Positions 13,069 to 22,758 of a stretch of DNA of 64,000 nucleotides are shown here, piece after piece; the stretch's first letter is position 1, and each line of letters starts with the position of its first letter. The DNA is from Kiloniella spongiae (GTDB taxonomy: Bacteria; Pseudomonadota; Alphaproteobacteria; Kiloniellales; Kiloniellaceae). The DNA lies in contig NZ_LAQL01000013.1 in assembly GCF_001026905.1 (NCBI RefSeq), positions 1-64,000 of the forward strand. Reading direction: 5' to 3'. A model generated the notes under the pieces. The model did no database searches, had not been told where the DNA came from, and saw only the letters and a program-made list of their open reading frames with translations. Position numbers and translations under genes: made by a program.

Positions 13069-15366
13069 GTGAGGTCGGGTAAGGTCGTGTCAGAAGAACA
13101 AAACAAAAATACGAATGAAAGCCAAGAAGAAGCTATCATTGATGAAGCCAATCCAGATGATCTTCAAGCGAAAGAAAACCTTGAAGAGGGTGCAAAAGAA
13201 GCACAAGAAGCCGGAGATGATCTGAATAGGTCAGAAACCCTGGATTCAGAAGAACAAGAGCTAGAAGAGGCGCCCCGGACGACGTTTCTTGGAAACTTCT
13301 CTTTAACCACCCGCATATCATCTTTGATGCTATTGGGTATTGTTGCACTGGGGGTTATCTGTGCGATTTATTTTGTAGGCGATGTTCTTTTGTCTCAAAG
13401 CCGCGATCAATTGGCACAGAATCAGGTAAAATTAACACAAAGTCAGGAATTGCTGGCTACTGATCAAAATTTATTAAAAAAATCCCAGTATGTTCAGAAG
13501 CTAGTTGATGAGATTGAAGTCACGATCAATCATCTTGCGCTAAATGAAAAAGACTTTCTCCTCAAGAGTGATCTCAAATTTGAAGATCTCTTCTTCAAAG
13601 AAATGGATATCGTTAATGTCAAAATAAAAGAGCTGAAAGAACACGCAACGAACGAAGAAATCAAAGCTGTGGCGCTGGATTTGGAAGAAAAACTAAGGGC
13701 TTATGAAGATGGGTTTGGCGTTGTTGTTCAGGATAAATCAACCCTGGGCATGACAAAAAATGCGGGTCTAAAGGGTAAGCTTAATAATTCAGCATTTGCG
13801 ATCGAAGATAGTCTAAAAGCGCCTTATTTGGTAAAGTTAGCCGGCGAAATGACGGCGATAAGGACGGTTGAAAAAACCTTTATTATTACGCATGAACAGG
13901 ACGATATGAAAGCGGTCCTCAAACAAGGGAAAAAATTCCTGCGTAATGTGAAATATGCTTTGTTATCAAAAAAAGAGAAGAAAAAAATCCAGGAAATGGT
14001 TGAAGTTTACCTGACTGATTTTGAAAATTTTGCCAAGACAACACTAAGTTTTGATGGCGGAACAGATCGTTTGGTTGAGGCTTTCGGCAAATTAAAAGAC
14101 CCTATTACCCAAATGGCCAATTTAAGTAAAGTAGAGCTGATGGCTATTTCAGACCGTGTTGCTCAAGTATCAGCCGATGTTGAACTGGTTTCCGCTGACG
14201 TCAAAAAAGTTTCTTTGAAAGCGGATGAAAATGCATCTTCTATCCGCAGCCTTATTATCGGTGCAGCCATTGTGATTTTCATCTTGATGATAGCAATAGG
14301 GATTGTTGTTCTACGAAGTCTGACTGGTCCTATTCGCTCAATCACCAATGTAACAACGCGTTTATCAGAAGGGGATAAAGATGTTGATATTCCTGCTGTA
14401 GATAATCGTGATGAAGTTGGTGAGATGGCACGATCACTTCTGGTCTTTAAAGAAAACTTGATCGAAAATGAACGTAATGAAGCTGAACGGCGTGAGCAAC
14501 GTCAAGAGCGTGAAGCTCGTGCTAAACGTTTGGAAGAGTTGGCCGAACGTTTTGATGGTGAAGTAAGAGAAGTTCTTTCCGGGCTTCAGAGCTCAACAGG
14601 TCGTATGGGCGAAACAGCTTCGACAATGTCAACTATTTCTGATGAAACAAAAGCACAGTCTGCTGCAGTTGCCTCTGCATCTGATTTGGCGTCGACTAAT
14701 GTGCAAACAGTGGCTTCGGCTGCCGAAGAATTATCCGCGTCGATTAATGAGATCAGCCGACAAGTGATGGATTCTGCTGATGTGACCAGCCGTGCTGTTA
14801 ACGAAGCAACCAAAACAAGCCAAACTGTTCAGGAGCTATCTGATGCTGCGCAGAAAATTGGTGAAGTTGTTCATCTGATTAATGACATTGCGGAGCAGAC
14901 TAATCTGCTTGCTTTGAATGCAACGATTGAAGCTGCCCGTGCCGGAGAAGCGGGTAAAGGTTTTGCCGTTGTTGCTTCAGAGGTTAAGTCACTAGCTAAT
15001 CAGACAGGTAAAGCCACAGAAGAAATCTCTGAGCAAATTGCGACGATGCAGCGTCAGACTGGTTCTGCTGTTAACGATATCGAAGGCATCAGCAATATTA
15101 TTAATCAGGTCAACGAGATCGCGTCGGGGATTTCTGCTGCGGTAGAAGAGCAAGGTGCTGCGACACAGGAAATTGCTCGTAATACACAGGAAGCTGCGCG
15201 GGGAACCCAAGAGGTTTCTGCAAATATTTCCGGCGTGAGCCAGGCTGCGGAAAAATCTGGTCAGGCTTCTGATCAGGTGATGACAGCGGTTGATGAATTG
15301 AAAACGCAAGGGGATCGTCTGAACTCTCAAGTGCAGAATTTCTTACGAGAGATCAAAAGCGCATAA
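13069..15366 (+). CDS. methyl-accepting chemotaxis protein
   Basis: A 765-aa transmembrane chemoreceptor. A 75-residue N-terminal cytoplasmic extension, extremely rich in Glu/Asp/Gln, precedes TM1 (about 84-106). A large, mostly helical periplasmic domain of about 285 residues follows, then TM2 (about 393-416), HAMP (about 417-470) and the signalling domain. Its hairpin tip is the conserved [19 protein letters not shown] (about 607-625), which contacts CheA/CheW. There is no obvious C-terminal CheR-binding pentapeptide. The start could be the GTG at 13069 or the GTG at 13087; neither ribosome site is strong. No other chemotaxis gene is in the window, so the ligand is unknown. Confidence 0.93.
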
Positions 15367-15440: not shown

Positions 15441-16343
15441 TTACGAATTCGGGATAGATTTTTTAAGTTTTACCCTGCTAACGGCAATACCGAATAAAAT
15501 GAGTAACAGGCCGATCATTGTTGCAGGAGGTAACCGTTCACTGAGAAATAAGGCCCCCCATAAAACGCCAAAAAACGGAACGAGATATCCAACATAAGAT
15601 GCAAAAGTGACCCCTACTTCTCTGATCAGGTAAAATCTGAGAATAAAAGCAATAGCCGTTGGAATGAGCCCTAAGTATACAAGCGCCAAAATGGCATTTG
15701 TTTCACTTGCCGCTATCGCAACCCAAGGTGTTTCAAAAATCAAACTAACGGGAAGGATCAAAACGGTTGCCGAGATCAGGATGGAGGCGGTGATGACTGT
15801 ATTGGATTTCTCTTTTACGCGTCGCACCAAAATTCCAGAACAGGCATAACACATAGCAGCAAACATCGTAATGATCTGGGCGTAAAAATTATCCCCAATG
15901 CTTGAAAAGGTTTCTAATCCAAGAACAACGACTACACCAGAAAATCCAACGAGAACACCTAAAAATTTAAACAATGTAAAACGATCATCAATGCTGAAAA
16001 AGTGCGAAAGTATCAAGGCGATAAGAGGCCCTGTTGCCATTAAGATGGCTGTGAGACCGGAACTGATAAACTGTTCAGCCCAGCTAATCATCGTAAAGGG
16101 CGCAGCCATACTGAAAAAACTAATCAAGATGATCTGGTTCCAGAACTTTTTATCTCTCGGCAAGGTAAGAGATCGGGAACGCATATAAATATAAATGACA
16201 ATACTTGCTATCAGTAAACGGCCAGCTGCAATGGTCGCAGGGGGGATATCCTCAACAGTAATTTTGATAGCCAGAAATGCGGATCCCCAAATGGCTGCCA
16301 GTGATGTTAGCAGGATGAAATCCCATAGGGTTGGTGCGCGCAT
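15441..16343 (-). CDS. EamA/DMT-family transporter
   Basis: A 300-aa inner-membrane protein with ten predicted helices arranged as two EamA repeats (about residues 10-145 and 158-290). The drug/metabolite transporter family exports amino acids, metabolites or drugs. Supporting phrases are IWGSAFLAIKITVE near the N-terminus and YVGYLVPFFGVLWGALFLSE in the second repeat, both characteristic. The short basic C-terminus is cytoplasmic. The start ATG is at 16343. It is monocistronic and divergent from mipZ. The substrate cannot be inferred. Confidence 0.88.
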   Translation of the reverse strand: MRAPTLWDFILLTSLAAIWGSAFLAIKITVEDIPPATIAAGRLLIASIVIYIYMRSRSLTLPRDKKFWNQIILISFFSMAAPFTMISWAEQFISSGLTAILMATGPLIALILSHFFSIDDRFTLFKFLGVLVGFSGVVVVLGLETFSSIGDNFYAQIITMFAAMCYACSGILVRRVKEKSNTVITASILISATVLILPVSLIFETPWVAIAASETNAILALVYLGLIPTAIAFILRFYLIREVGVTFASYVGYLVPFFGVLWGALFLSERLPPATMIGLLLILFGIAVSRVKLKKSIPNS

Positions 16344-16556: not shown

Positions 16557-17396
16557 ATGACTGAGCAGAACAAGCAACATCGGCCCCGTATTGTCGTTAT
16601 CGGTAATGAAAAAGGGGGGTCGGGTAAGTCCACCACGACAATGCATCTTGTTGTTTCTCTTCTCAGGGAAGGCTATCGGGTAGGTACGATTGATCTGGAT
16701 GCGCGACAGGGTACCTTATCCCGCTATCTTGAAAATAGAGCGAGTTTTGCGAATGGATCATCTAATAACTCTATCCCGATGCCGGAACACAGACGTGTAT
16801 ATCGATCTCAGGCATTAACTACAGAAGCAAGTGAAGTCGAAGATAAAGCTAATCTTGAAAAGGCGATGACTGAACTCTGGGACCGGGATTTTATTGTGTT
16901 TGATACACCCGGAAGTGACAATTATCTCTCGCGCCTTGGACATAGCTATGCGGACATTCTAGTTACCCCCCTGAATGATAGTTTTCTGGATATGGATATG
17001 TTGGCGAAGGTCGAGGTTCAGGATGATGAATTAAAATTGACCCCAAGCACCTATAGTCAAATGGTATGGGAGCAACGCCAACAGCGGGCTGTTCAGCGAA
17101 AAAAGCCAATTGACTGGGTCGTGATGAGAAACCGCCTTTCCCATATTGATGCTAAGAATAAAAGGGATATGGGAGTCTTACTCGAACATTTAGCCAAGCG
17201 TTTGCAATTCAGATTGGCATCAGGATTTGGAGAGCGTGTTATCTTCAGAGAACTGTTTCCCAAGGGACTGACACTCCTTGATCTGGATGAAAAAGGAACT
17301 GGTGTTACCATGAGTATGAGCCACGTTGCTGCGCGTCAGGAAGTACGATCTCTCTTGAGTGCGATTGGTTTGGATAAAGAAGAGGTCTCTACTTAG
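16557..17396 (+). CDS. mipZ: division-plane positioning ATPase MipZ
   Basis: A 279-aa ParA/MinD-type ATPase. The deviant Walker A motif GNEKGGSGKST (about 17-27) is followed by IDLDARQGTLSRYLENR, a switch I-type segment, and Walker B-like FIVFDTPGSDN. The segments VTPLNDSFLDMDMLAKV, SQMVWEQRQQRA and DWVVMRNRLS are specific to alphaproteobacterial MipZ rather than chromosome-partition ParA. In Caulobacter MipZ forms a gradient from ParB-bound origins and inhibits FtsZ assembly, placing the Z-ring at mid-cell. It is the first of a co-oriented group with a VWA protein and a J-protein. No parB, minCDE or ftsZ is in the window. Confidence 0.93.
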   Translation: MTEQNKQHRPRIVVIGNEKGGSGKSTTTMHLVVSLLREGYRVGTIDLDARQGTLSRYLENRASFANGSSNNSIPMPEHRRVYRSQALTTEASEVEDKANLEKAMTELWDRDFIVFDTPGSDNYLSRLGHSYADILVTPLNDSFLDMDMLAKVEVQDDELKLTPSTYSQMVWEQRQQRAVQRKKPIDWVVMRNRLSHIDAKNKRDMGVLLEHLAKRLQFRLASGFGERVIFRELFPKGLTLLDLDEKGTGVTMSMSHVAARQEVRSLLSAIGLDKEEVST

Positions 17397-17484
17397 AGAA
17401 TGAGAAGCTATGTTTTTGTTTGTAAGTTCCTATATATAGTATTGCCATGAAATTTTACTGATCGGCTTGGCAAAGGAGCTTTCT

Positions 17485-18213
17485 GTGTCCGAGAAGAAAT
17501 CAGTTATCAGAAAAGAGAAATCTGTTTCTGCTGTTAAAAGATCTACGGATCAAGAGGTTGATCTGTTTTTGAATAAGCTGTCGCACATGCCGAAAACAAC
17601 ACGGACAAAAGGACGTTTGATCTTTGCTCTGGATGCGACTGCAAGTCGACAGATGACTTGGGATCATGCTTGCCACATTCAAGCAATGATGTTCGAAGAG
17701 GCCAGAAATGTTGGCGGGCTTGAAATTCAATTGGTTTTCTATCGGGGGTTCCGTGAATGCAAGGCATCGGGTTGGGTTGAGGACACTCCCCATTTGTCCC
17801 GCTTGATGACATCTGTCAGTTGCCTGGCGGGTAACACTCAAATCGAAAAAGTATTTAAGCGCGCGCTTAAAGAAACAAATGAGAAAAAAGTGAATGCAAT
17901 GGTCTTTGTTGGTGATGCCATGGAAGAAGATATTGATACTCTTGGTCATCTCGCGGGGCAGCTCGGTTTGCATGGTTTACCTTGCTTTATGTTCCATGAA
18001 GGCAATGACCCGGTTGTTGCAACTGCCTTTAAGCAGTTTGCAAGGTTGTCGGGTGGTGCATATTGCCCTTTTGATGAGGGTGCCGCACAACAGTTAAAAG
18101 ATTTATTAACCGCAGTTGCCGTTTTTGCGGCAGGGGGACGAAAAGCCCTTGTTGATTATTCACAAAAAAACAAAGGTACATCGACAAGATTACTCTCACA
18201 AATTCCAGAGTAA
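17485..18213 (+). CDS. VWA-domain cytoplasmic protein
   Basis: A 242-aa protein with a von Willebrand A-like fold: LIFALDATASRQ (a MIDAS-like start, DxTxS instead of the classical DxSxS), LEIQLVFYRG, LAGNTQIEKVFKRAL and VNAMVFVGDAMEED, then a strand with FARLSGGAY. There is no signal peptide or membrane helix, so it is cytoplasmic. The first 40 residues are basic and probably disordered. The start is the GTG at 17485, with AAGGAG 6 bases upstream. It is encoded 88 bases after mipZ and followed 77 bases later by a membrane J-protein. The function is unknown; the conserved context suggests a link with division or envelope growth, which is inference. Confidence 0.82.
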   Translation: MSEKKSVIRKEKSVSAVKRSTDQEVDLFLNKLSHMPKTTRTKGRLIFALDATASRQMTWDHACHIQAMMFEEARNVGGLEIQLVFYRGFRECKASGWVEDTPHLSRLMTSVSCLAGNTQIEKVFKRALKETNEKKVNAMVFVGDAMEEDIDTLGHLAGQLGLHGLPCFMFHEGNDPVVATAFKQFARLSGGAYCPFDEGAAQQLKDLLTAVAVFAAGGRKALVDYSQKNKGTSTRLLSQIPE

Positions 18214-18290
18214 TGGAACATTAGTGGTTATCATGATGCTCTTGAGTGGCATGATTATTAATTTTTCAATTGGACGGAGATATTTCTAAC

Positions 18291-19016
18291 GTGATCGCCT
18301 ATTTTATACTCGGCATTGGGTTGTTTCTGGGGGCTCTCTTTCTGGTTCAGTGGTTCAGTCGCGCCAATCCGGCTACAATATTAAAAACAATCAAAATTGT
18401 CGTTGCCATAATTGGCCTCTTTATCGCCCTATTCTTGCTATTCACCGGGCGGATATTTCTAGTTCTCGCTGCCGTACCTTTGTTGCTTCCTTTTATCTTG
18501 CGTTGGAGGGCTTTGTTTTCGCGTATGAAGGCGGCTTCTGGTGGAACGTCAGGGCAAATTTCTGAAGTCGTTACCAGGTTTTTGAAAATGAAGCTGGATC
18601 ATGATAGTGGGGATATGGATGGTTTGATCCTAACGGGAGAACGTGAAGGGTACTGGTTATCCGAGCTGGATCTTGTGGTGCTTGAGCAATTGCACCGCAT
18701 CTATTCCATAGAAGATACGAAGTCTGCTGAGTTACTATTTGCCTATGCTGCAAGACGTTTTGGGGCCGATTGGAATGATGAGCCTGAAGTTGCTTCTAAA
18801 AGCCATGGAGAAGGGCGAGAGCATGATTTTGATGATCAAATGGATAGAACGAAGGCGTTGGAAGTTTTGGGATTAACAGGAGAGCCATCAGATGATGAAA
18901 TACGAAGTGCGCACCGTAAACTGATGCAGAAGTTACATCCTGATCACGGAGGAAATACTTACCTCGCAACTCAGGTCAATCGAGCCAAGGATATTCTTTT
19001 AAACCGCTCTGGTTGA
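18291..19016 (+). CDS. membrane-anchored J-domain protein, TIM14-like
   Basis: A 241-aa inner-membrane protein. Three hydrophobic stretches (about residues 2-22, 32-52 and 54-70) are followed by a roughly 100-residue cytoplasmic linker and a C-terminal J-domain. The J-domain (about 190-241) has ALEVLGLTGEPSDDEIRSAH and the HPD motif in LHPDHGG, ending with NRAKDILL. The HPD-x-GG plus NxAKDxLL layout and the position at the extreme C-terminus match mitochondrial TIM14/Pam18 better than classical DnaJ. The J-domain should stimulate the DnaK ATPase at the membrane. The start is the GTG at 18291 (GGAG upstream); a TTG 7 codons earlier is an alternative. Confidence 0.85.
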   Translation: MIAYFILGIGLFLGALFLVQWFSRANPATILKTIKIVVAIIGLFIALFLLFTGRIFLVLAAVPLLLPFILRWRALFSRMKAASGGTSGQISEVVTRFLKMKLDHDSGDMDGLILTGEREGYWLSELDLVVLEQLHRIYSIEDTKSAELLFAYAARRFGADWNDEPEVASKSHGEGREHDFDDQMDRTKALEVLGLTGEPSDDEIRSAHRKLMQKLHPDHGGNTYLATQVNRAKDILLNRSG

Positions 19017-19077
19017 GTTTCTATTTATACTGTGGCAAAGACATACTGATTTTAATTTAATGAGGAGTGCGGCATCT

Positions 19078-19950
19078 ATGCGCCGACCCGTTCGTAAAGC
19101 GATTTTCCCTGTCGGGGGTCTTGGTACCCGATTTTTACCAGCAACCAAAGCGATGCCGAAAGAGATGTTGCCTGTGGTTGATAAGCCCTTGATTCAGTAT
19201 GCTGTTGAAGAAGCGAAAGCTGCTGGAATAGAAGAGTTTATTTTTGTTACCGGGCGTGGAAAAACAGCAATCGAGAACCACTTTGATCGTGAATATGAAC
19301 TGGAAGCTGTACTTGAAAGCCGTGGCAAAGAAAAAGAGCTGAAAGATTTGGCAAGCCTGCTTCTGGAAGCAGGAAGTGTGACCTATATGCGCCAGCAAGA
19401 GCCATTAGGATTAGGCCACGCTGTCTGGTGTGCCAGAAATGCAATTGGGGATGAACCTTTTGCGGTTTTGCTCGCGGATGACCTTATTCAGGCCGGGACA
19501 CCTTGTCTTAAGCAAATGATTGATAGTTATCAGGACACAGGTGGACATTTGGTTGCGGTTATGGATGTTCCGAGGGAACAGACAAACCGTTACGGTATTT
19601 TGGACGTCGTTTCTGAAAATGGTCCATTGGCAAAGGCTAAAAGTCTTATCGAGAAACCAGCACCAGAAGTTGCGCCATCGACTCTTTCTATTATTGGACG
19701 TTATGTGTTGGATCCGTCTGTTTTTCGTGAGCTTGACAAAAAAGAGCGTGGGGCAGGCGGTGAGATTCAACTTACCGATGCTCTGGCTGCAACCCTTGAT
19801 AACGTTGATTTTCACGGCTTGAGATTTGAAGGAACCAGATTTGACTGCGGTAGCAAGGCCGGGTTCTTGGAAGCAACGATTGCTTTTGCTTTGGAGCGCG
19901 AAGATCTTGGTGGTCGAATGCGTGATATTTTGAACAAATATACAAAATAA
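19078..19950 (+). CDS. galU: UTP-glucose-1-phosphate uridylyltransferase
   Basis: A 290-aa enzyme making UDP-glucose from UTP and glucose-1-phosphate, the precursor for exopolysaccharide, lipopolysaccharide and, through Ugd, UDP-glucuronate. Diagnostic motifs are FPVGGLGTRFLPATKAMPKE near the N-terminus, VDKPLIQYAVEEA, LGHAVWCA, LADDLI (metal-binding Asp) and IEKPAPEVAPS. I chose the ATG at 19078 because GAGGAG lies 10 bases upstream, inside the longer frame that begins at 19060. It is followed directly by ugd and pgm, forming a UDP-sugar supply cluster. Confidence 0.95.
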   Translation: MRRPVRKAIFPVGGLGTRFLPATKAMPKEMLPVVDKPLIQYAVEEAKAAGIEEFIFVTGRGKTAIENHFDREYELEAVLESRGKEKELKDLASLLLEAGSVTYMRQQEPLGLGHAVWCARNAIGDEPFAVLLADDLIQAGTPCLKQMIDSYQDTGGHLVAVMDVPREQTNRYGILDVVSENGPLAKAKSLIEKPAPEVAPSTLSIIGRYVLDPSVFRELDKKERGAGGEIQLTDALAATLDNVDFHGLRFEGTRFDCGSKAGFLEATIAFALEREDLGGRMRDILNKYTK

Positions 19951-20028: not shown

Positions 20029-21354
20029 ATGCGTATTGCAATGATCGGTACAGGTTATGTTGGCTTGGTATCTGGGACGTGTTTTTCTGAATTCGGGACT
20101 GACGTTGTTTGTGTCGATAAAGATGAGAACAAAATCGAAGGCCTTAAAAAAGGCGTAATCCCGATTTTCGAGCCTGGTTTGGATACGCTCGTAAAAAACA
20201 ATTCTGAAGCTGGACGTCTAACCTTCTCTACTGATCTTGCTGCCGCTGCCAAAGATGCCGATGCTATTTTTATTGCTGTTGGTACACCTCCGGGTGAAAA
20301 TGATGGTCAGGCGGACCTTTCTTATGTTTATCAGGCGGCAAAAGAAATTGCTGAAGTTATTGATGGTTATAAGGTCATTATAACCAAATCGACTGTACCT
20401 GTTGGAACAGGGCGCGCTGTTGAGCGTATTATCCGCGAAACAAGACCAGATGCGGATTTTGATGTGGTTTCCAACCCGGAATTCCTACGCGAGGGCGCTG
20501 CGATTAATGATTTCATGCGTCCTGACCGGGTTGTAATTGGCGCAGAAACCAAGCGCGCGCAAGATATTATGGCGGAACTCTATCGTCCTTTGTACTTGAT
20601 TGAAACACCAATTCTCTTTACGAAGCTTGAGACATCAGAGCTGATTAAATACGCAGGTAACGCTTTTCTTGCGACGAAGATCTCTTTCATTAACCAGATG
20701 GCAGATCTTTGCGAAAAGGTTGGGGCTGATGTCCACCAAGTTGCCAAAGGCATTGGCCTTGATGGTCGTATCGGGCGAAAATTCCTACATGCTGGACCTG
20801 GCTATGGTGGATCGTGTTTTCCAAAGGATACACAAGCCCTTGCCTATACTGCACGGGAAGCTGGTGCACCGGTAAGTCTTGTCGAAGACGTTATCTCTTA
20901 TAACAGTGCGCGCAAGCGTCAGATGGCCGAGAAGGTTATTGTTCAGTGCGGCGGTTCAGTTGCCGGTAAAAAAATCGCTGTCCTAGGACTTACCTTTAAG
21001 CCGAATACAGACGATATGCGTGATTCTCCAAGCCTTGATATTATTCCTCTTCTACAGGAAAAGGGTGCACAAATTAGTGCGTATGATCCCGAAGGGATGG
21101 CAGAAGCAGAAGAACTCTTAACTGATGTTTCTTATGGCCAAAATGCCTATGAAATTATGAGTGACGCTGATGCTCTGGTAATTATTACAGAATGGAATGA
21201 ATTCCGTCGTCTTGATCTTGATCGTGTCAAAGGATTGTTAAAATCCCCTGTGATGGTTGATCTTCGAAATATATATAATCCTGATGAGATGAAAGAGGCT
21301 GGTTTTGACTATCTTTGTGTTGGTCGCCCGCTGTCTGCATTTTCTGCTGAATAA
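20029..21354 (+). CDS. ugd: UDP-glucose 6-dehydrogenase
   Basis: A 441-aa NAD-dependent enzyme oxidising UDP-glucose to UDP-glucuronate in two steps. The N-terminal Rossmann motif is MIGTGYVGLVSGTCFSEFG. TKSTVPVGTG and SNPEFLREGAAI follow, then the central helix with YAGNAFLATKISFIN, and the catalytic cysteine in GPGYGGSCFPKDT (Cys about 264). The C-terminal UDP-binding domain contains GLTFKPNTDDMRDSPS. Ribosome site AGGAG lies 8 bases before the ATG. It lies between galU and pgm and draws on their common product. Confidence 0.95.
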   Translation: MRIAMIGTGYVGLVSGTCFSEFGTDVVCVDKDENKIEGLKKGVIPIFEPGLDTLVKNNSEAGRLTFSTDLAAAAKDADAIFIAVGTPPGENDGQADLSYVYQAAKEIAEVIDGYKVIITKSTVPVGTGRAVERIIRETRPDADFDVVSNPEFLREGAAINDFMRPDRVVIGAETKRAQDIMAELYRPLYLIETPILFTKLETSELIKYAGNAFLATKISFINQMADLCEKVGADVHQVAKGIGLDGRIGRKFLHAGPGYGGSCFPKDTQALAYTAREAGAPVSLVEDVISYNSARKRQMAEKVIVQCGGSVAGKKIAVLGLTFKPNTDDMRDSPSLDIIPLLQEKGAQISAYDPEGMAEAEELLTDVSYGQNAYEIMSDADALVIITEWNEFRRLDLDRVKGLLKSPVMVDLRNIYNPDEMKEAGFDYLCVGRPLSAFSAE

Positions 21355-21384: not shown

Positions 21385-22758
21385 TTGTATAATTTTGATC
21401 CGACAATCATTCGTGAATACGACATCCGAGGTATTATCGGCGAAACTCTTTCTTCTGCCGATGCAATTGCTATTGGGCGCGCGTTTGGAACGATAATAAG
21501 ACGTGCTGGCGGCGATAAAGTTGCTGTCGGCTATGACGGGCGAACGTCGTCACCAGATTTGGCTGATGCACTCACGCAGGGGCTGGTAGCATCAGGGGTT
21601 ACTGTGTACGGAGTGGGACGCGGGCCTACGCCGATGCTATATTTTGCTGCTTATACCCTACCTGTCGATGGTGGCATAATGATCACGGGATCTCATAATC
21701 CGGGTAATCATAACGGATTTAAGCTGGTTCAGAATAAGCAGGCCTTTTTTGGGGAACAAATCAAGGAAATCGACAGGATCGCGAAGTCGGGTGATTTTGA
21801 AGAGGGAAAAGGTGATTATATTGAACACCCTATTTTTGATGCCTATATTGCACGCCTTCTGGAAGAAGTTCAGTTTAAACAAAGTAGCCTAAAAGTCGTT
21901 TGGGACGCAGGGAACGGTGCCGCTGGTGAGGCTATGACATCGCTTACTGCGAAATTGCCGGGGCAGCATGAGCTTCTGTTTGCTGATATTGATGGAACTT
22001 TTCCTAATCATCATCCTGATCCAACCGTACCGGAAAACGTTGTGGATTTACAAAAGGCAATCGCGACTAATAAAGCTGATCTTGGAATTGCTTTTGATGG
22101 AGACGGCGATCGTATCGGGTTGGTTGATGCGGAAGGTGAAATCTTGTGGGGAGATCAGATTATGCTCTTCCTTGCCAAAGGTGTTCTCAAAGATCTTCCG
22201 GGAGCAACTGTTATTGCTGATGTGAAGGCAAGCCAGGTTCTTTTTGATGAAATTGAAAAAGCGGGCGGCAAGCCTGTTATGTGGAAGACAGGACATTCAC
22301 ATATCAAGTCAAAGATGATTGAACTCAACGCACCTTTTGCAGGTGAAATGTCTGCGCACCTTTTCTTTGCTGATCGTTATTATGGGTATGATGATGCTCT
22401 TTATGCAGCAGTGCGTGTTTTGAACATTATTGAAGACGAAGGACTGTCATTGGCTGAATTCAGAAAGTCTCTGCCAAAGGCCGTGAATACGCCGGAAATG
22501 CGGTTTGAATGTGCAGATACACGCAAGTTCAGTGTTGTGGAAGAAGTGGCAGCACGCTTAGCTGAAGAAAAAGCTGATGTTGTCTCTGTAGATGGTGTTC
22601 GCGTGAATACTGATGATGGGTGGTGGTTGTTACGAGCATCAAACACCCAGGCTGTTTTGGTCGCGCGGTGTGAGGCGTCTAGCGAAGACGGTTTGAAACG
22701 CTTACGAAAACAACTCGCGGACCAACTTCACAAGAGTGGTGTTGCCATTCCGGATTGA
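21385..22758 (+). CDS. pgm: phosphomannomutase/phosphoglucomutase
   Basis: A 457-aa member of the alpha-D-phosphohexomutase family, interconverting glucose-6-P and glucose-1-P (and/or the mannose pair), supplying GalU. Four signature sites are present: the phosphoserine loop ITGSHNPGNHNGFK, the metal-binding DGDGDRIG, the sugar-binding loop GEMSAHLFF, and the phosphate-binding RASNTQAVLVARCEA. Length is typical of AlgC-like enzymes (about 460 aa). The start is a TTG at 21385, 30 bases after ugd, with GAGA upstream; no ATG fits because REYDIRG, the conserved N-terminal substrate loop, follows after 10 residues. Whether it should be called manB or algC cannot be decided from sequence. Confidence 0.92.
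   Translation: MYNFDPTIIREYDIRGIIGETLSSADAIAIGRAFGTIIRRAGGDKVAVGYDGRTSSPDLADALTQGLVASGVTVYGVGRGPTPMLYFAAYTLPVDGGIMITGSHNPGNHNGFKLVQNKQAFFGEQIKEIDRIAKSGDFEEGKGDYIEHPIFDAYIARLLEEVQFKQSSLKVVWDAGNGAAGEAMTSLTAKLPGQHELLFADIDGTFPNHHPDPTVPENVVDLQKAIATNKADLGIAFDGDGDRIGLVDAEGEILWGDQIMLFLAKGVLKDLPGATVIADVKASQVLFDEIEKAGGKPVMWKTGHSHIKSKMIELNAPFAGEMSAHLFFADRYYGYDDALYAAVRVLNIIEDEGLSLAEFRKSLPKAVNTPEMRFECADTRKFSVVEEVAARLAEEKADVVSVDGVRVNTDDGWWLLRASNTQAVLVARCEASSEDGLKRLRKQLADQLHKSGVAIPD

Follow-up and report, generated by a model that had tools for sequence, protein, structure and literature searches.

In a 64,000-nucleotide stretch of the alphaproteobacterium Kiloniella spongiae (contig NZ_LAQL01000013.1, positions 1 to 64,000; hereafter the window), three co-oriented genes on the + strand encode the division-positioning ATPase MipZ, a protein with a stand-alone VWA domain, and a membrane J-protein, and are followed by galU, ugd, and a phosphohexomutase gene (Table 1). 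The presence of these three co-oriented genes, which had been proposed in a sequence-only reading of the window, is borne out by the open reading frames, the Pfam matches, and the structure models. The VWA protein and the J-protein constitute a conserved unit, and neither MipZ nor galU is an obligate partner of that unit.

The VWA protein is not recognized by any Pfam or NCBIfam model at its cut-off, PF13519 reaching 15.8 of the required 27 bits. Its predicted structure (pLDDT 87.9) matches VWA domains, with a VIA Z-score of 19.0 and a root-mean-square deviation (rmsd) of 2.4 over 170 residues to 8ebu_E, and a VWA fold is confidently predicted for the product of 17485..18213. The metal ion-dependent adhesion site (MIDAS), DxT/SxS...T...D, is complete in the window protein (D50, T52, S54, T118, and D144), and its residues are identical in all 129 of 129 loci, representing 121 distinct sequences. 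The VWA_2 (PF13519) and CoxE-like VWA (PF05762) domains share the fold and the MIDAS with the window protein; among 91 relatives, VWA_2 matches 28 and VWA_CoxE matches three at E ≤ 0.01, and the window protein is matched by neither. No MoxR-type ATPase was recognized by eye among the 40 largest neighbor clusters.

The structure model of the J-protein (pLDDT 87.5, pTM 0.46) consists of N-terminal hydrophobic helices, a β3–α2 middle domain, a low-confidence linker, and a C-terminal J-domain. The hydrophobic helices are read from the model as three membrane passes, and, because positively charged segments flank these helices, an N-out/C-in topology that places the J-domain in the cytoplasm is probable. 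The middle domain is modeled with strands at residues 90-94, 98-103, and 108-113 and helices at 128-141 and 143-160; the VIA matches of the model cover residues 179-241 only, and the middle-domain fold may be a known one. A likeness of the middle domain to TerB was provisionally set aside in view of the predicted strands. Related J-proteins occur in a long form, which contains the middle domain, and in a short form, which does not. In a separate case (G076:C7:45414-45869), a 180-residue frame matches positions 18-157 of the J-protein profile, that is, the membrane and middle part, with 57.1 bits, and does not match the J-domain.

Pfam recognizes the DnaJ domain (PF00226) of the window J-protein with 28.2 bits, barely above the cut-off of 27.8. 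The position of the J-domain at the C-terminus, after membrane helices, with HPD-x-GG and a helix III of the N-x-AKD-x-LL type, was correctly described from the letters and is seen in both sequence and model: HPDHGG lies at 18936-18953 and is accompanied by N-RAKD-IL. Residues H216, P217, D218, and G221 are invariant across 92 aligned relatives, and G220 is present in at least 90% of them. A family profile (A3) built from these 92 J-protein relatives retrieves yeast TIM14 (2guz_A) as the top match in the PDB, with 69.6 bits (E 3.4e-18) and an alignment that extends through helix III, against 38.1 bits for the runner-up, a DnaJ. On a profile of the J-domain, yeast TIM14 scores 72.5 bits and the Caulobacter relative 66.5, compared with 41.4 for E. 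coli DnaJ, 36.5 for DjlA, and 25.8 for CbpA; the other J-proteins of the same genome, as labeled by us, score 36.6 (DnaJ-like), 33.3 (DjlA-like), 32.1 (CbpA-like), and 27.5 (another). In the reverse direction, the yeast TIM14 fragment finds the window J-protein in its own genome with 40.3 bits, ahead of the DjlA-like protein (19.0) and a protein of DnaJ length (15.7). The predicted fold points the same way, with TIM14 as the best Foldseek match of the model (E 8.5e-4) and 2guz_A as the best VIA match (Z 9.9, rmsd 1.1, 59 residues; next match, Z 8.0, 57 residues). The J-domain is TIM14-like by sequence and by fold, as the sequence-only reading had supposed.

The same comparisons bear on a rival view, in which the J-protein would be a small membrane co-chaperone of the ordinary DjlA kind and its likeness to TIM14 would have arisen by convergence in a short domain. 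DjlA shares membrane anchoring and a C-terminal J-domain with the window J-protein, the domain compared comprises only about 60 residues, and a single TIM14 sequence was used. Among constrained trees of 32 sequences, neither the one joining TIM14 with DjlA (approximately unbiased (AU) p 0.19) nor the one placing TIM14 outside the window J family (AU p 0.29) is rejected. However, the profile gaps between TIM14 and DnaJ, DjlA, or CbpA amount to about 31-47 bits, and in maximum-likelihood trees over 60 columns TIM14 falls within the bacterial J-proteins, a group that no ordinary J-protein enters (supports 55 and 49). A firm grouping of the J-domain with ordinary DnaJ/CbpA is opposed by the profile scores, and the AU test rejects the tree that unites TIM14 and DnaJ/CbpA (p 0.037). 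The window J-protein also lies far under the NCBIfam cut-offs for DjlA (26.5 of 162 bits) and DnaJ_bact (20.4 of 377.2 bits), the J-domain profile gives DjlA proteins only 33-37 bits, and the genome carries a separate gene that we label DjlA-like. Convergence is, on balance, very improbable.

The association of the two proteins was followed in 190 genomes of the class, which comprise 147 families by the labels of the tool used and include many drafts. TIM14-like J-proteins were called at 52.9 bits or more, above the ordinary J-proteins, which reach about 46 bits and less, raise the unfiltered tally to 188, and were left out together with one G076 row; MipZ was called at E ≤ 1e-20. The VWA profile is matched in 68 of these genomes, MipZ in 95, and the TIM14-like J-protein in 107. 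The J gene lies directly downstream (<400 bases, same strand) of 66 of the 69 VWA copies, the J gene touching the VWA gene in two genomes counted as VWA-bearing (G009 and G143). The three remaining copies are found in G066 and G082, which have both genes apart, and in G100, which has a weak, interrupted VWA match and a short J-protein. A TIM14-like J-protein is encoded in each of the 68 VWA genomes, which form a strict subset of the J-bearing genomes (Fisher p 7e-24, with relatedness ignored). Across 398 genomes of the phylum, in which at most seven VWA candidates per genome were scored, VWA is found in 33, of which 30 are in the class (one by a weak partial match) and three belong to one genus outside it; the J profile matches 81 genomes at E ≤ 1e-12, 74 of them inside the class. 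The VWA profile also retrieved 590 named loci, of which the 80 with the best scores, a selection biased to close relatives, were examined; the J gene follows within 1.5 kb in 79 of these and lies about 2 kb away in L064. The pair is present in all 11 of these loci titled Gammaproteobacteria or Chromatiales, without MipZ or galU at the distances scored.

A candidate site of contact is the motif LDHD[S/T]G, which sits in the hairpin between strands 98-103 and 108-113 of the J-protein middle domain. Of the 123 loci with a VWA gene in the genome, 122 retain H104 together with G107, as do 116 of the 117 distinct sequences. Nine long-form J-proteins in the 190 genomes have no adjacent VWA gene. Two of these occur in genomes with a VWA gene elsewhere and keep the motif (IDHGTG and LDHDSG); seven occur in genomes without any VWA match, as found with all candidates scored and with a query that does detect VWA in the class and phylum samples, and none of the seven keeps both residues, their sequences being VNANTR, VNHEGN, VNANTR, INIQSR, TLAGDG, LSID-G, and MDMASG. 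In G046, G170, and G171, the motif retains 0-1 of five conserved positions, and the rest of the middle domain retains 18, 19, and 18 of 28; 16/28 and 14/28 of these other positions are kept in G070 and G189. For a second set, loss of the motif in further VWA-less long forms was written down as a prediction before the sequences were inspected. The motif is lost in six of the 13, all from family f71; it is kept in the VWA-bearing members of this family and in all seven VWA-bearing controls. Both sets together give retention in 129 of 130 VWA-bearing loci versus seven of 20 VWA-less ones; counted by genus, the motif is kept in one of eight VWA-less cases.

Several observations weigh against so direct a coupling. 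The prediction failed for the other seven VWA-less long forms of the second set, all of genus g173, in which the motif is kept. In this genus, seven loci (L223-L229) lack the VWA gene but are otherwise collinear with that of G299 (L236), which has it; recent loss of the VWA gene would explain the retained motif, an explanation found after the fact. Two of the seven VWA-less forms of the first set, G030 and G088, keep only 9/28 and 7/28 of the remaining middle-domain positions, so that motif loss there may reflect general decay. One VWA-adjacent J-protein lacks the motif histidine (L169, LDLETG), and a diverged VWA protein with an intact MIDAS occurs alongside a short J-protein in G100. Mutual information over 82 paired VWA/J rows does not concentrate at the MIDAS face or the hairpin, and the Fisher p-values overstate the associations because the genomes are related. 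The coupling of motif and VWA is therefore real, though not absolute.

TIM14 holds Hsp70 at a membrane site, and VWA domains classically bind an acidic residue of their ligand through the MIDAS metal. The explanation that we favor, to which we give about an even chance of being right as a whole, is that the VWA–J pair forms a DnaK-recruiting membrane platform in which the MIDAS docks on the hairpin. In this scheme, the J-protein would be a membrane J-protein of the TIM14/TimB type, with its N-terminal helices in the inner membrane and its J-domain reaching into the cytoplasm; given the analogy with TIM14 and this probable cytoplasmic placement, it would be expected to recruit DnaK to the inner membrane, where the J-domain may stimulate DnaK acting on clients located at the membrane face. 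The J-protein would have the stand-alone VWA protein as its dedicated partner. The foremost candidate for the ligand is the hairpin, which carries D103 and D105, and the metal site of the VWA protein may bind the acidic LDHD[S/T]G loop of the middle domain. The VWA protein would then either deliver clients or gate the access of DnaK. We infer the topology, the stimulation of DnaK, the binding of VWA to J, the MIDAS–hairpin contact, and the client role alike. As to the clients, our favored guess is the assembly or quality control of envelope proteins; division is a lesser one, ranked lower because MipZ has been gained and lost independently.

A related proposal is that the pair helps envelope proteins to be inserted, assembled, or exported, with the J-protein placing DnaK at a translocase, as TIM14 does at TIM23, and the VWA protein serving as an assembly adaptor. 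The TIM14-like J-domain would suit such a role, and another region of the genome encodes a Tim44-domain protein (PF04280, 164.6 bits; G000:C55:328493-328927, L212), which is a candidate TimA by sequence; in 14 control genomes, the Tim44-domain search finds matches in Caulobacter and Lactococcus. However, no Pam16 match is found in the Kiloniella genome (PF03656, E ≤ 0.1), the same search giving one sub-cut-off match, in Caulobacter, among the 14 controls. No translocase gene was recognized by eye in the conserved neighborhood, and bacterial translocation runs in the direction opposite to import. The window J-protein shares with TIM14/Pam18 the HPDxGG motif, the helix III pattern N-x-AKD-x-L, an N-terminal membrane anchor (an N-terminal transmembrane domain is described for yeast Pam18 in PMC3174187), and a C-terminal J-domain, but differs in having several predicted hydrophobic helices where TIM14 has a single membrane segment, and in its extra middle domain, its VWA partner, and the missing Pam16 match. 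A role at a translocase is, in our estimate, unlikely.

The neighborhood of mipZ had suggested a membrane chaperone module linked to division, in which the VWA–J pair would bring DnaK to the pole or the division site to remodel MipZ, FtsZ, or proteins of the envelope. The identity of MipZ is clear (PF09140, 339.7 bits against a cut-off of 20.7; Caulobacter MipZ 2xj4, E 9.5e-67), and the gene order is conserved far beyond close relatives, recurring across the class, including the Caulobacter order. The 111 J copies of the class sample are divided between genomes with MipZ (55) and without detected MipZ (56). In the former, MipZ directly precedes the J gene, at most 2.5 kb away and on the same strand, in 44 of 55 cases, 26 with a VWA gene between and 18 without; in the other 11, MipZ is elsewhere or on another contig. 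On the other side, MipZ is present in 52 of 107 J-bearing and 43 of 83 J-less genomes (p=0.77), its presence is equally uncorrelated with that of VWA (p=0.88; relatedness ignored in both), and 34 VWA–J pairs occur in genomes without detected MipZ. Among the best 80 of 590 named loci, MipZ lies within 2.5 kb upstream in 29, with three more untestable, and in none of the 11 titled Gammaproteobacteria or Chromatiales. galU is downstream more often than MipZ is upstream, in 40 of the 80.

The genes galU, ugd, and phosphohexomutase, together with a gene that we label carboxypeptidase-like, are frequently near, which counts in favor of the division module; the conserved order nevertheless takes in galU and other genes besides MipZ, so the neighborhood alone is weak evidence, and, with MipZ uncorrelated with the presence of the J-protein, support for a division role comes from gene order only. 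The unit of VWA and J stands, but the link of MipZ to it is positional only, MipZ having been gained and lost independently, and the division module is quite unlikely. On the platform explanation preferred here, MipZ, galU, and the other neighbors would represent an old alphaproteobacterial gene neighborhood whose members are possibly co-expressed, and the eye-catching position of mipZ serves as a warning.

The positional link extends to Caulobacter. A search with Caulobacter MipZ (2xj4) of 120 genomes from the order around G063 finds MipZ in 112. An open reading frame with HPDxGG directly follows MipZ on the same strand in 28 of the 30 loci returned, L204 and L205 having none; the 28 include all 25 loci returned for the family of the Caulobacter genome (f64). 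In G657, which encodes a MipZ with 100% identity to 2xj4, a J-protein of 150 residues starts 73 bases past the MipZ stop. This J-protein (L179) resembles that of the window in being a TIM14-like membrane protein encoded directly downstream of MipZ, but lacks the middle domain, and no VWA gene is seen separating it from MipZ.

Relatives of Tim44 and Tim14 in Caulobacter, TimA and TimB, were reportedly described by Clements et al. in 2009. TimB, CCNA_02245, and the J-protein encoded beside mipZ are presumably a single protein. In other papers, TimA serves as an inner-membrane marker, and the 2009 study is cited in connection with Tim44. A review lists CCNA_02245 among five additional Caulobacter DnaJ-like J-domain proteins without known role (PMC8119881), and a further paper assigns mipZ to CC_2165 and pantoate-beta-alanine ligase to CC_2166 (PMC3073932); gene numbering suggests that CCNA_02245 is the J gene adjacent to mipZ (L179). 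Alphaproteobacterial TIM14-like J-proteins are already known, and the Caulobacter member has been listed as a J-protein, probably also as TimB. The supposition that both genes beside mipZ are uncharacterized in bacteria does not wholly hold for the J-protein. A VWA partnership with a candidate contact was not found in the open-licence literature searched, nor was a positional link between a TIM14-like J gene and mipZ. The VWA protein as a conserved partner of J, the candidate contact loop, and the positional link to mipZ, including that in Caulobacter, are new here.

A possible, though doubtful, scenario is that TIM14 arose from a membrane co-chaperone of bacteria, encoded in an operon with mipZ and linked by a metal-bridged hairpin to a VWA adaptor with which it worked, and that VWA and the middle domain were lost on the way to the short forms, as in Caulobacter, and to TIM14. 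What a TIM14-type J-protein ancestrally did before the import motor becomes a testable question, given a candidate partner, a contact loop, and a natural loss series, the last provided by the seven collinear VWA-less loci of genus g173 and G299. Tractable bacteria are available for both forms, namely Caulobacter (short form, beside MipZ) and Azospirillum (long form with VWA, L043).

Table 1. Genes and protein features at and around the mipZ–VWA–J locus of the window.
Feature	Position	Strand	Basis and remarks
mipZ, division-positioning ParA-like ATPase	16557..17396	+	PF09140, 2xj4 match; a neighbor, not a shown partner
VWA gene, GTG start 17485; stand-alone VWA domain with complete MIDAS	17485..18213	+	Predicted structure, MIDAS conservation
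J-protein gene, GTG start 18291; TIM14-like membrane J-protein	18291..19016	+	Profile, structure model
Hydrophobic helices of J-protein, residues 1-82	18291..18536	+	Model helices 2-24, 27-52, 55-70, 72-82
Alpha/beta middle domain of J-protein, residues 89-162	18555..18776	+	Structure model
LDHDSG hairpin of J-protein, residues 102-107; candidate VWA-docking loop	18594..18611	+	Conservation versus VWA presence
J-domain with HPDHGG, residues 184-241	18840..19016	+	Pfam, family profile, model
galU	19060-19950	+	Pfam; downstream neighbor, not claimed as functional partner
ugd	20029-21354	+	Pfam; downstream neighbor, not claimed as functional partner
Phosphohexomutase	21385-22758	+	Pfam; downstream neighbor, not claimed as functional partner
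Methyl-accepting chemotaxis protein, upstream of mipZ	13069-15366		Pfam
EamA transporter, upstream of mipZ	15441-16343		Pfam

The gene starts in Table 1 follow the relatives, which favor GTG 17485 over the mechanically listed TTG 17467 for the VWA gene and GTG 18291 over TTG 18270 for the J gene. The intergenic gaps from mipZ through VWA and J to galU measure 88, 77, and 43 bases, which makes co-transcription of these four genes plausible; a scan for promoters and terminators gives no excess over shuffled sequences (9 versus 10.6 and 7 versus 6.2, respectively), and PADLOC returns no match. The best-scoring named locus among the best 80 of 590, that of Kiloniella laminariae (L036), has a VWA protein 67% identical to that of the window and the order EamA-mipZ-VWA-J-galU-ugd, matching the window. 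The names DacF, PanC, ClpS, and phasin given to neighbor clusters are by-eye labels.

VWA–J pairs are also seen in metagenome-assembled genomes titled Gammaproteobacteria or Chromatiales and in the one genus outside the class (L159, L160 (G249, G348), L048, L050, L068, L079, L086, L096, L097, L104, L105, L108, and L110), and this genus has a second, short TIM14-like J-protein. G184, with a contamination of 5%, carries two VWA–J pairs, on contigs C73 and C84, one of them beside MipZ.

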